From Candidatus Fluviicola riflensis (GTDB lineage Bacteria > Bacteroidota > Bacteroidia > Flavobacteriales_D > Crocinitomicaceae): 64,000 nt of DNA. Numbering within the stretch: position 1 is the stretch's first letter; every line of letters begins with the position of its first letter. The position numbers and the translations under genes are program-made. A model generated the notes under the pieces. The model searched no databases, had not been told where the DNA came from, and saw nothing but the letters and a program-made list of their open reading frames with translations. This document shows positions 22,891 to 25,790 of this stretch, one piece after another. Location of the stretch: contig CP022585.1 of assembly GCA_002243285.1 (NCBI GenBank), forward strand, positions 3,832,641 through 3,896,640, read 5' to 3'.

Positions 22891-22995
22891 AAAACACAAA
22901 CTATAGCTAGCCAATATGGAAATATCATGTGATAAAAAAACCGGTTCGCGCAAGTTTTTTAACTTCAAGACATCTAAACCATAAATAGCGAATCA

Positions 22996-23574
22996 TTGAT
23001 CGATGTGGTAAGTGTTGCGGCATTACAAACAGGGAGCCCTGAAGCTTTCGGCTTGCTCGTGGACCAATATTCGGATAAAATTTACAGGTTGGTTTTTGGC
23101 ATTGTACAACGGCAGGAAGAAGCGGAAGACATTACACAAGAAGTCTTTACAACTGTTTTTACCTCTGTTGCCCGTTTCAAAGGCGACTCGTTGATTTCGA
23201 CCTGGATGTACCGGATTGCGGTGAACAAATGCCAGGAATTCCTGAGGAAACAATCGCGCGGAAAACGTTCCGGCAAACATGTTACCTACGAACAGGTTCA
23301 GGGAACGTCGCAGCAAATGAGCTCGACCTACATGCATCCGGGAAATGAACTCGAAAATCAGGAACGCGGGATCATTTTGCTGAATGCGATGAACCAATTA
23401 ACAGAACAGCAGCGAATTGCCTTCACCATGAACAAGCAGGAAGGTTTTTCTTACGAGGAGATTGCGCAGGCAATGAACTTGTCAAAATCGTCAATCGAAT
23501 CGCTGATTTTCAGGGCCAAAAAGCACTTACAGGTATTGCTGGCGGCTTATTATGATGAACACATTAACCGATAA
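22996..23574 (+). CDS. ECF-type RNA polymerase sigma factor
   Basis: 192 aa. Region 2 is clear (AFGLLVDQYSDKIYRLVFGI; AEDITQEVFTTVF; STWMYRIAVNKCQEFLRK) and region 4 has LTEQQRIAFTMNKQEGFSYEEIAQAM with a following HTH. The frame opens after a stop at 22975, with TTG at 22996 or GTG at 23005 as possible starts and no ATG, so the exact start is uncertain. A small membrane protein follows 12 bp later and is the probable anti-sigma factor. Sigma, anti-sigma and a CpxP/Spy-like protein together suggest an envelope or metal stress response. Confidence 0.93.
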   Translation: MIDVVSVAALQTGSPEAFGLLVDQYSDKIYRLVFGIVQRQEEAEDITQEVFTTVFTSVARFKGDSLISTWMYRIAVNKCQEFLRKQSRGKRSGKHVTYEQVQGTSQQMSSTYMHPGNELENQERGIILLNAMNQLTEQQRIAFTMNKQEGFSYEEIAQAMNLSKSSIESLIFRAKKHLQVLLAAYYDEHINR

Positions 23575-23586
23575 TTTTTTTGCGTC

Positions 23587-23868
23587 ATGGAACCAAAAGA
23601 ACAATGGATAGAAGAAACACTCAATAGCCTCAACGGGTTGAAGCAGGTAACTGCATCCGGGGCGTTGAAAAACCGATTGAAAAGCATTCCGATTAACATT
23701 AGTCCGGGAATCCGGGTGATGGTGCCCAAGCGTTCGGTCTGGCTGGCGGCGGCGAGTATTGTGCTCATCATCGGCATCAACATTACAGCGATATACGCAA
23801 CGCAGCAGCAAACCACGGATACAGAAACGGTTGAAGCAGATTATTTCACCTACCTCAATCAATTGTGA
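23587..23868 (+). CDS. Small membrane protein, probable anti-sigma factor
   Basis: 93 aa. A hydrophilic N-terminal half (about 1-50) is followed by one membrane segment (SVWLAAASIVLIIGINITAI) and a short acidic external tail. Size, topology and its place directly after an ECF sigma gene fit a minimal anti-sigma factor that holds the sigma factor at the membrane. No zinc-binding HxxxCxxC motif is present, so it is not a ZAS-type protein. The stop codon overlaps the next start by 1 bp. Confidence 0.7.
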   Translation: MEPKEQWIEETLNSLNGLKQVTASGALKNRLKSIPINISPGIRVMVPKRSVWLAAASIVLIIGINITAIYATQQQTTDTETVEADYFTYLNQL

Positions 23869-24353
23869 TGGAAAAAACGCGATTTTATAAATTGGTGATT
23901 TTGGTATTGGTACTGGTGAATTTAACGACGCTGTACTTTTACTGGAATGGCTGTTCGACGGAAGAACACCGTCACCATCATGGTCCACCACCCCGAAAAA
24001 GCCTTGTAACGTTACTTTCATTGACCGGAACGGCAAAACAACGCGTTCAGGCGTTGGAAAAGGATCATTTCCGGGTAAAGGATTCATTGATCAATGTCAG
24101 TCGACAGCTTCACGAAGACTTGTTTGTGTCGTTTAAAGATCCTTCCAAAGACAGCGCTTCGATTCAACAACTGATCGACCACATCGTGGAAAATCAGCGT
24201 GAGACCGAACAAATGACCTTTGATTATTTTAAGGAAGTCGAAAAATTCTGTACGCCATCGCAAAAAAAGAAATTACAAAAAGCGATTCACGGTGCACTTT
24301 TAAGAGTCAATCCACCACCACCGCCACCTCACGGGCGAAGAGAGCATCCTTAA
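23868..24353 (+). CDS. Membrane-anchored Spy/CnrX-like His-rich sensor protein
   Basis: About 161 aa from the ATG at 23868, which overlaps the upstream stop; a GTG at 23865 is also possible. An N-terminal membrane anchor (LVILVLVLVNLTTLYFYW) is followed by a His-rich segment (EEHRHHHGPPP), a long helical region with periodic charged residues (about 50-145), and a Pro-rich basic tail. Helical periplasmic proteins of this shape next to ECF sigma/anti-sigma pairs include CnrX-type metal sensors and Spy/CpxP chaperones. The His cluster favours metal sensing, but this is inference. Confidence 0.65.
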   Translation: MEKTRFYKLVILVLVLVNLTTLYFYWNGCSTEEHRHHHGPPPRKSLVTLLSLTGTAKQRVQALEKDHFRVKDSLINVSRQLHEDLFVSFKDPSKDSASIQQLIDHIVENQRETEQMTFDYFKEVEKFCTPSQKKKLQKAIHGALLRVNPPPPPPHGRREHP

Positions 24354-24390
24354 TGAATTAAATTCTCCAATACTCTATAAAAACTAAACT

Positions 24391-25734
24391 ATGAAAAAAA
24401 CATGCCTTGGAATTGCTTTGGCTTTCTCCGCCATGAGCAACGCGCAAAGTCCGGCCATTACGTCCTGGCTCATTAACACAACAAACGCCACCGGAAGCCA
24501 TTATGTTTCGGGTAACGGCACTCCGATTTCTGACGCCACATTGGCCAATGTGCAAACGGTACAGTATTCGGCAAACTGGGTGTACGTTTCCACAAAAGGA
24601 ATTCCGACCTATCCAACCGGGCCATTTTTAGATGGCAATCCGTCACTGGCGACTTCCCAAAATGCCATTTTCAAATTCCCGCTTTCTCCGGTGGAAAACA
24701 CGGGTACGCCCACTGCAACTACTATGGGAAACATTGGTGTTTTCATCAATGGCGTTGCCTTATTCGATTACCGCGACGGTGTTTCATGGAAAAATTCGAC
24801 CGGTGCTTTGGCCGGTGGACCTTTAGGTGGAACAGGTGACGGTGTATGGAACCGCGACGCCGTTGTTGCCGAAATGGAAGGGTTCGACTGTTCGAAAGGT
24901 CATCCGGCAATGGGGAATTATCATCATCACCAAAATCCGAGTGCTTACAACCTTGATCTTACCGTCATTTCAGACATTTGCGATATTTATGCCGCCGACG
25001 GTTTATATGCGATCAATGGGTCTGTTCATTCTCCGCTGATCGGTTTCGCCTACGACGGATTCCCTATTTACGGTGCTTACGGATTCAAAAATACCGATGG
25101 AACAGGTGGAATTGTACTTATCAATTCGGGCTACCAATTGCGGAATATTACCACAAGAACCGTTTATGCAGATGGCACCGATGTCACAGATGGTCCACCG
25201 GTAAATGCCACTTATCCGCTCGGTTTATTCCGCGAAGATTATGAATTTGTCACGCATGTGGAACCGGAATACCTGGATGAGCACAACGGCCGGTTCTGTG
25301 TAACTCCCGAATACCCGCTTGGTACGTATTGTTATTTCGCCACAGTTGACGAAAACTGGAATTCGGCCTATCCGTATGCAGTCGGCCCGACATTTTATGG
25401 TGTAAAAACTGCCGCTAAAGTTCCTTCAATTTCAGAAACTGTTACCACATACGATCCCTCTGCAGCAGGTTTGGATGAAAATGTAAGTGTTTCATTTAAT
25501 GTCTTCCCGAATCCGTCGGCAGATGTTGTCATTGTGCAGGCTTTCGGTGCGCACAGCAGCGATATTGCTGTTGAATTGTGGGACATGAACGGTAAGTTGA
25601 TCCAGACACAAACCATTCTCCAGGGAAGTACGATTTGTTATTTCCCGGTTGCTGAGCTTCAAAGCGGAAGGTATATCATTCATGTACAGGGAAATATTGC
25701 AGCGAAAGACTATTCGATTGTGATTGCTGAATAA
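24391..25734 (+). CDS. YHYH domain protein with T9SS sorting signal
   Basis: 447 aa. Signal peptide (MKKTCLGIALAFSAMSNAQS), then a YHYH-type domain (about 50-360) with the His cluster GNYHHHQNP, and FAYDGFPIYGAYG and a Cys-containing YPLGTYCYFATVD near its end. The final ~80 residues (FNVFPNPSADVVIVQAFG; WDMNGKLIQTQ; LQSGRYIIHV) form a T9SS sorting domain, so the protein is predicted to be secreted or surface-attached. The His-rich site suggests metal binding; the family's activity is not established. It follows the sigma cluster by 37 bp and may be its target or part of the same transcript. Confidence 0.85.
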   Translation: MKKTCLGIALAFSAMSNAQSPAITSWLINTTNATGSHYVSGNGTPISDATLANVQTVQYSANWVYVSTKGIPTYPTGPFLDGNPSLATSQNAIFKFPLSPVENTGTPTATTMGNIGVFINGVALFDYRDGVSWKNSTGALAGGPLGGTGDGVWNRDAVVAEMEGFDCSKGHPAMGNYHHHQNPSAYNLDLTVISDICDIYAADGLYAINGSVHSPLIGFAYDGFPIYGAYGFKNTDGTGGIVLINSGYQLRNITTRTVYADGTDVTDGPPVNATYPLGLFREDYEFVTHVEPEYLDEHNGRFCVTPEYPLGTYCYFATVDENWNSAYPYAVGPTFYGVKTAAKVPSISETVTTYDPSAAGLDENVSVSFNVFPNPSADVVIVQAFGAHSSDIAVELWDMNGKLIQTQTILQGSTICYFPVAELQSGRYIIHVQGNIAAKDYSIVIAE

Positions 25735-25751
25735 AATAAGTAGTACAAGTA

Positions 25752-25790
25752 AACAGGCGTGGGTTGTAACTTGCTCACGCCTGTTTTTGT
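25752..25790 (+). terminator. Rho-independent terminator after the YHYH gene
   Basis: The arm AACAGGCGTG (25752-25761) begins a stem with CACGCCTGTT across the loop GGTTGTAACTTGCT, followed by a T-rich tract (TTTTGTTTT). It lies 18 bp after the stop codon. Confidence 0.85.

Follow-up and report, generated by a model that had tools for sequence, protein, structure and literature searches.

An extracytoplasmic function sigma factor cassette with a secreted YHYH protein in Candidatus Fluviicola riflensis, the probable regulatory half of a two-locus regulon linked to copper

We analysed a stretch of 64,000 nucleotides (the window, positions 3832641-3896640) from the single-contig genome of Candidatus Fluviicola riflensis (4,551,443 bases), which contains four consecutive genes for an extracytoplasmic function (ECF) sigma factor, a small putative anti-sigma factor, a Spy/CnrX-like putative sensor and a YHYH protein predicted to be secreted. 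In our view they probably form the regulatory half of a regulon that is linked to copper and divided between two loci, the other half being an mbnP-mbnH-YHYH operon elsewhere on the chromosome. The identities of the genes, their recurrence in relatives as part of a larger set, the division of this set over two loci, and a sequence motif that is shared by both loci and otherwise absent from the genome are established by computation. The four-gene unit comprises the following features (aa, amino acids; ORF, open reading frame; T9SS, type IX secretion system):

22949..22977, + strand, predicted ECF-type promoter (CGCAAG at 22949-22954, 16-nt spacer, CATCTAA at 22971-22977)
22996..23574, + strand, ECF sigma factor, 192 aa (ORF call, Pfam/NCBIfam)
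23587..23868, + strand, putative anti-sigma factor with a single transmembrane segment, 93 aa (one hydrophobic stretch; CnrY-like size and place)
23868..24353, + strand, Spy/CnrX-like putative membrane-anchored sensor, 161 aa (ATG at 23868; GTG at 23865 also possible)
24391..25734, + strand, YHYH protein, 447 aa
24670..25362, + strand, YHYH domain PF14240, aa 94-324
25501..25698, + strand, T9SS type A C-terminal sorting domain, aa 371-436
25751..25786, + strand, predicted intrinsic terminator (14-bp stem, T-rich tail)

The first-pass annotation had described four ORFs in one run, the first three nearly touching or overlapping, and both statements hold: ORF calls and Pfam/NCBIfam matches recover the run, the sigma and anti-sigma genes are separated by 12 nt, the anti-sigma and sensor genes overlap in TGATG, and the YHYH gene follows the sensor gene after 37 nt. 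The sigma factor contains both region 2 and region 4 (Pfam Sigma70_r2, E 1.1e-15, and Sigma70_r4_2, E 3.6e-18), and the putative anti-sigma factor gave no credible Pfam or NCBIfam match (best Pfam E 0.0054, under cut-off). Bracketed by the predicted promoter and the predicted terminator, the four genes look like a single transcription unit. It is its long stem and its position that speak for the terminator, since the scan of the region as a whole barely exceeded shuffled sequence (6 terminator-like sites versus 4.3); the scan for sigma-70 promoters was uninformative (7 found versus 5.8 in shuffles). In a mechanical ORF call the first possible start codon of the sigma gene is TTG in two species (window position 22996 and position 2900 of L041), and such an uncommon initiation codon might limit the amount of sigma factor.

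Relatives of the YHYH protein were taken from genome contigs (the best 80 of 559, closest to the window) and from 59 related genomes, of which the flanks of 20, plus two more, were used, and their neighbours were identified with profiles built on genes of the window, of L041 and of L009, the second locus of the same genome. This gave 105 loci, namely the 80, the 20, the window itself and L009, L151, L152 and L154; L153 and short duplicates of places already included were left out. Partners on the same strand and within 6 kb were counted in the 83 whose sequence upstream of YHYH extends for at least 3.6 kb. The loci do not form an independent sample, as the genome under study contributes two and its sibling three, and the search favoured close relatives, the closest being L039 from this sibling, a Fluviicola metagenome-assembled genome whose YHYH protein is 92% identical. 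All five partners, i.e. sigma, anti-sigma, CnrX/Spy-like sensor, mbnP and mbnH, lie ahead of YHYH in 46 of the 83 loci (39 of the 61 that qualify among the 80 genome-contig loci). Counted singly, sigma and sensor were each found in 51 loci, the anti-sigma gene in 48, and mbnP and mbnH in 66 each, with mbnP-mbnH as sole partners in 16. Partial sets lack only the anti-sigma gene (two loci), the anti-sigma and sensor genes (one) or the sigma and anti-sigma genes (one). The distance from mbnH to YHYH exceeds 300 nt in 9 of the 66 loci. Where sigma and sensor occur together, mbnP and mbnH are present as well in 48 of 50 loci, and the two exceptions are the window and its sibling L039; among the 22 loci with shorter upstream DNA, L086 has anti-sigma, sensor and YHYH genes without an intervening mbnP-mbnH pair. 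A lack of linkage between the YHYH gene and the sigma cluster in relatives, which the first-pass annotation had named as evidence against its proposal, is thus not what we found, given a sigma gene upstream of YHYH in 51 of the 83 loci. The four genes that it listed are all there, but they make up only half of the system, since most loci with a sigma cassette hold mbnP and mbnH between sensor and YHYH. Another genome of the same family contains a YHYH-like stretch with two stop codons (G030:C33:100486-100794, L033), perhaps a decaying gene.

The genome itself encodes an mbnP-mbnH-YHYH operon at C1:52.5-55.6 kb (L009), whose YHYH gene (C1:54.3-55.6 kb) specifies a protein 38% identical to that of the window. 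The genes ahead of it encode MbnP (PF20243, 156.8 bits, cut-off 27) and a MauG-type di-haem enzyme, MbnH (PF03150, 177.7 bits, cut-off 25.6). Both miss the NCBIfam equivalog cut-offs, MbnP with 43.3 of 140 bits against TIGR04052, its best NCBIfam model, titled 'MbnP family copper-binding protein', and MbnH with 207.5 of 362.85 bits against TIGR04039, and by these scores we place the pair in the wider MbnP/MbnH family, outside the narrow NCBIfam models. Among the matches within length and score limits (70 of 82 for MbnP, 82 of 93 for MbnH), both Trp residues of the WxW motif and His178 are present in 70 of 70 aligned MbnP sequences, and two CxxCH motifs and Tyr300 in 82 of 82 MbnH sequences. 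Tyr300 is at what we take to be the position of the axial Tyr of MauG and MbnH, where bacterial cytochrome c peroxidase has Met. The same Tyr is found in the alignment with 6e1c, presumably M. trichosporium MbnH and one of the closest solved relatives of MbnH in the PDB, and the alignments with bacterial cytochrome c peroxidase stop just short of the position. A PDB sequence search with MbnP of the second locus gave no match. In a quick tree the second-locus YHYH groups with L151, L154, L128 and L130 (SH-aLRT, Shimodaira-Hasegawa-like approximate likelihood ratio test, 100), and MbnH falls in a six-row set (support 99) whose nearest members all belong to the same genus. In L128, L130 and L154 the corresponding mbnP-mbnH-YHYH genes stand directly behind a sigma cassette, followed in L128 and L130 by a second, more window-like YHYH gene, and the mbnP-mbnH-YHYH half looks like the set that is resident in the genus. 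In the genome under study, three additional genes for MbnP, and others for di-haem enzymes, lie at C1:470000-482000 (L148), 766000-777000 (L149) and 2025000-2035000 (L150), where the promoter motif described below and, within the stretches examined, YHYH genes are absent.

The two halves are connected by the motif CGCAAG-N16-CATCTAA, which stands ahead of the sigma gene in the window and ahead of mbnP at the second locus. As it was first spotted at these two sites their recovery is by construction, so that the informative parts are the absence of a third exact copy, the equal spacing and the identity of the motif in other loci. Exact CGCAAG-N14-18-CATCTAA occurs twice in the 4.55 Mb genome, once before each half, versus no match for the reversed-pattern control, and the sibling genome has two exact copies at matching places. 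Two six-gene loci, L042 and L069, also have the exact motif with a spacer of 16 before their sigma genes. Since a search that allowed two mismatches was swamped by chance matches (37+28 versus 50+46 in the control for the genome under study), the genome-wide statement counts exact matches only. Among 53 scanned loci with sigma and sensor genes, 18, the window included, have the motif at spacer 16 with at most two mismatches (fractions of 0 to 0.025 when each was shuffled 200 times by single letters). The count leaves out L077, where the spacer is 18 and the distance 142 nt, and the sibling L039, exact in the separate genome scan, was missed here owing to the ORF start setting. Of the 19 motif-bearing sigma factors, 18 fall in one 23-row clade (support 97). 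We regard the motif as the putative promoter of this sigma factor, and there is good evidence, at the level of sequence, that in this species pair one sigma factor drives both loci as a two-promoter regulon. Loci L128, L129, L130, L131 and L154 carry, as judged by eye, a different string upstream of their sigma genes, AAACTTTT..GTATCATT..CTTAAG, which may serve as promoter for the sigma clade to which they belong.

The second locus resembles MbnP/MbnH of methanobactin operons, MopE/SACCP and CorA/CorB in that a di-haem MauG-like enzyme (PF03150) adjoins a WxW protein (PF20243). In work of 2021 on M. trichosporium, Cu(I) binding by MbnP was reportedly made possible by MbnH, which turns the first Trp in WxW into kynurenine by oxidation. 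Passages of PMC3912023 describe a Cu(I) site with kynurenine in CorA and the repression of both CorA and MopE by copper. Repression of CorA/CorB is likewise reported in passages of PMC3621798, which also place some Methylosinus MbnP/MbnH pairs near ECF regulators, note that MopE and CorA lack marked similarity to MbnP, and state that, as of 2013, no data tied close MbnP homologues to copper. Unlike in the methanotroph pairs, the regulation here is CnrX-like and not FecIR-like, and it is coupled to a T9SS-exported YHYH protein. No methanobactin genes turned up, no search aimed at them having been made.

A survey of 296 genomes drawn from the phylum found PF14240 in 34 of them, and flanks were fetched for 40 of about 51 places. 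At 20 of these loci the match covers mainly the first part of PF14240 (short type), and a SCO1/SenC gene lies within 5 kb in 12 of the 20, its identity being confirmed by Pfam in all six proteins tested; the longer proteins of the set come mostly from the eight loci that lack SCO1. A MORN-like repeat protein, named by look, is encoded in 13 of the 20, and both examples searched against Pfam gave no match at E 0.001. YHYH, MORN-like and SCO1/SenC genes recur as a trio in L295-L303, L306, L312 and L314 from other Bacteroidota, with the short-type YHYH gene preceding SCO1/SenC. Twice the trio stands behind the same cassette (L295 and L312, in the order sigma, anti-sigma, sensor, YHYH, MORN-like, SCO1), and in L310 sigma, sensor and YHYH genes occur but SCO1 does not. 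The other 20 surveyed loci contain mbnH in seven cases, mbnP in six and SCO1 in none. In contrast to the SCO1/SenC operons, the window unit has no SCO1 gene, and neither of the two PF14240 genes of this genome is of the short type. The mbnP-mbnH loci and the SCO1 loci L295 and L312 thus attach the cassette to YHYH in two different copper neighbourhoods, and the SCO1/SenC neighbourhood is a second, independent copper line. With mbnP-mbnH upstream in 66 of 83 loci and SCO1/SenC near 12 of 20 short-type loci, copper is the likely metal. The metal- or envelope-stress system with a secreted effector that had been suggested earlier is retained in the form of a predicted circuit linked to a secreted YHYH protein, and its metal is apparently narrowed to copper by the gene neighbours.

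The YHYH protein of the window matches PF14240 with E 8.9e-55 (186.1 bits, cut-off 25). Its residues 1-19 look like a signal peptide, and the sorting domain exceeds the cut-offs of both Por_Secre_tail PF18962 (E 3.4e-9, 37.3 bits, cut-off 27) and TIGR04183 (31.5 bits, cut-off 23), in agreement with the export by T9SS predicted in the first-pass annotation. His171, His178, His180, His213 and Cys303 are invariant in 82 of 82 aligned sequences, and Cys167, Cys197, His179 and His298 are present in 81 of the 82. PF14240 is seen in bacteria, phages and giant viruses; in phages the domain is part of structural proteins, whereas here it is found in a stand-alone secreted protein encoded after a sigma cassette. 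Among the PHROGs, the domain of the window protein matches baseplate and virion families (phrog_2885, baseplate wedge, E 2.3e-40), and environmental viral contigs (80 of 184 loci kept) contain YHYH domains, often several per frame. In an alignment of 46 sequences (25 bacterial sequences and 21 viral YHYH domains, the viral set of 23 distinct domains having been reduced by two of great length; residue numbers are core numbers plus 19), His213, Asp222, Asp283, Asp296 and Asn299 are invariant, and the His residues of the YHYH motif vary in some viral copies. On viral contigs (L215-L294) the domains are often repeated in very long frames and the motif His residues are replaced (YRYR, YNYV), which suggests that some viral copies may have lost the metal site.

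The fold model computed from the 46 sequences is fairly confident, with a predicted local distance difference test score (pLDDT) of 80.6 and a predicted template modelling score of 0.84; the model from 62 close relatives has a pLDDT of 43.7. Foldseek returned no PDB match at E <= 0.001 for the YHYH model, and a second structural comparison gave a best Z of 2.3, an absence that does not prove a new fold. In BFVD there were 14 matches at E <= 0.001, and the seven named ones are five YHYH proteins, one structural protein and one baseplate wedge initiator. By sequence the PDB yielded repeat-driven beta-propeller matches to part of the sorting domain and a single one at E 0.97, and the YHYH profile had no match there, so that no solved structure was found by this route. 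As to the literature, a diatom paper names YHYH in one of its passages (PMC11992049), a passage of PMC7824862 predicts a Zn site of a His triad and an Asp and a hydrolase role for phage YHYH, and in a passage of PMC7029224 the domain is grouped with those for carbohydrate binding and host recognition; in neither of the latter two papers do these passages deal with copper or with bacterial operons.

The His-rich stretch that the first-pass annotation had highlighted in the sensor (EEHRHHHG / HRHHHG) is not conserved in the alignment of relatives and was rejected as a metal site; conserved instead are His67, Glu/Asp114, His/Tyr120 and Cys128. The sensor scores below the cut-off of Metal_resist PF13801 (E 1.6e-5, 25.5 bits, cut-off 29.2), which is matched at E <= 0.01 by 13 of 34 family members and exceeded by the relative L207 (34.2 bits). 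Compared with the PDB, the sensor profile hits VirG-like 5ihf (E 0.0031), Spy 3oeo (E 0.0039) and NccX 4clv (E 0.077). The alignment to 4clv is weak (E 0.08); in it the NccX His pairs with His/Tyr120, and the residue four positions on is Ile/Val, not Met, the ligand Met123 of CnrX presumably lying four residues past the ligand His119.

The cassette resembles CnrYXH of Cupriavidus metallidurans and NccYXH, as an ECF sigma factor, a small putative membrane anti-sigma factor and a putative periplasmic sensor are encoded together (passages on CnrX in PMC7689651 and on CnrY in PMC7406223). It differs in that the sigma gene comes first, in that the sensor combines the conserved Cys128 with Ile/Val at the weakly aligned Met position of CnrX/NccX, and in that the predicted targets are a secreted YHYH protein and mbnP-mbnH and not a resistance-nodulation-division (RND) efflux pump. 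No RND pump gene is found among the four genes or beside the second operon, and exact motif copies precede these two units only, degenerate sites elsewhere being possible. Of the CnrYXH-type circuit named in the first-pass annotation the likeness stands, with linked sigma factor, small protein and sensor, and the circuit would be CnrYXH-like in its working, yet we do not file it as CnrYXH because the Met ligand of CnrX is absent, as far as the weak alignment goes, and the four genes include no efflux pump.

The sensor family is broad, with a match in 140 of the 296 genomes of the phylum. A sigma gene adjoins in all 30 sensor loci listed, and only eight of the 30 have YHYH, mbnP-mbnH or SCO1 (one of them a fragment) behind the cassette within the short flank; in L342 a YHYH match lies upstream of it. 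The genes behind the remaining cassettes resemble MscS channels or Spy-like proteins, judged by sequence look or by our own Spy profile. The sigma cassette of L340 (G210) precedes an 86-aa fragment resembling SCO1 and may be the remnant of a decayed operon. The conserved His and Cys residues were rejected as a mark of copper, as they are also kept in cassettes before other genes. An alternative that we regard as unlikely is a general response of the cassette to stress in the envelope or in protein folding, with YHYH as a secreted metal-dependent (zinc) hydrolase and the copper genes as part of a broad stress set. The likeness of the sensor to Spy, including an LTXXQ motif in 3 of 34 members, the many Bacteroidota in which the cassette precedes other genes, and the hydrolase and Zn-site prediction for phage YHYH (PMC7824862) would fit such a role, but two separate copper neighbourhoods of YHYH, mbnP-mbnH and SCO1/SenC, are hard to explain by general stress, and the genome has just two exact promoter copies.

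For the copper-linked regulon split over two loci we propose the following mechanism. At rest, the small anti-sigma factor, together with the sensor, would keep the ECF sigma factor at the membrane. The Spy/CnrX-like sensor would read periplasmic copper or a copper-dependent redox state via its conserved His and Cys residues, and the signal would free the sigma factor for transcription from two CGCAAG-N16-CATCTAA promoters, its own, serving sigma, anti-sigma, sensor and the T9SS-exported YHYH, and one elsewhere on the chromosome, serving MbnP, MbnH and the second YHYH. Oxidation by the MauG-like di-haem enzyme MbnH, at the first Trp of WxW, would enable MbnP to hold Cu(I), and the YHYH proteins, with MbnP, may act outside the cell in surface binding or transfer of the metal, copper. 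The direction of sensing, the maturation of MbnP and the role of YHYH we infer. By analogy, copper supply under shortage appears somewhat likelier than detoxification because of the precedent of MopE/CorA and because of SCO1, which supplies copper to cytochrome oxidase; yet CnrX fires on metal binding. In the case of detoxification, a tentative alternative to which we give clearly less weight, the metal-loaded sensor would free the sigma factor under excess copper, and YHYH and MbnP would soak up copper outside the inner membrane. CnrX-type sensing does release the sigma factor on metal binding and controls a resistance efflux pump (passages of PMC7689651), but such a pump is lacking among the four genes and beside the second operon, wider neighbourhoods not having been scanned for pumps. 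Copper repression of MopE/CorA and the supply role of SCO1 also point away from detoxification, if weakly, as MopE and CorA are unlike MbnP.

Several observations weigh against the split copper-linked regulon. Copper as the metal we infer from gene neighbours only, and the same cassette, with the His, Glu, His and Cys residues mostly kept, precedes other genes in Bacteroidota. The motif was not detected at spacer 16 with at most two mismatches in 34 of the 53 scanned sigma loci, nor upstream of 21 other mbnP genes, including three from the genome under study (L133 has two mismatches at spacer 15), so that signs of control in trans are limited to this species pair. At the second locus, MbnP has its first ATG 6 nt past the -10 box, the true start probably being further downstream. 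In the trees, the window sigma factor falls in a different clade from those of the L128, L130 and L154 genomes (support 97), and the window YHYH does not branch with other Fluviicola YHYH proteins (support of its own placement 85), which also leaves its candidate place as sister of the second YHYH of other Fluviicola unsupported. As window sigma and YHYH branch apart from the copies of the genus, the plain break of one operon into two is too simple, and the present arrangement arose by more than that; the sigma half may have been replaced or separately inherited. Finally, 15 of the 83 YHYH loci have none of the five partners within 6 kb upstream, as would be expected if YHYH were a mere passenger whose position behind the cassette is a local arrangement without functional link. 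We consider this highly improbable, as the neighbourhood recurs in distant Bacteroidota with two types of YHYH locus and a single predicted promoter and terminator bracket all four genes.

The system consists of known parts in a new combination. No published account of this combination of sigma factor, YHYH and MbnP/MbnH was found in the literature searched, from which subscription papers were largely absent, and nothing related by title joined YHYH with copper. A bolder and rather doubtful extension would make YHYH a new family of extracellular copper proteins with its own fold, in Bacteroidota secreted carriers akin to methanobactin that are loaded or relayed by MbnP/MbnH or SCO1 under a CnrX-type sigma circuit, its regulon divided in this species yet joined by one unique promoter motif, and a metal-binding module that phage virions reuse. 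YHYH is an enigmatic family, for which copper neighbourhoods and a dedicated sigma cassette offer a second, testable function beside the published zinc-hydrolase guess, and the regulon would show how Bacteroidota control MbnP/MbnH, which the literature found treats for methanotrophs.

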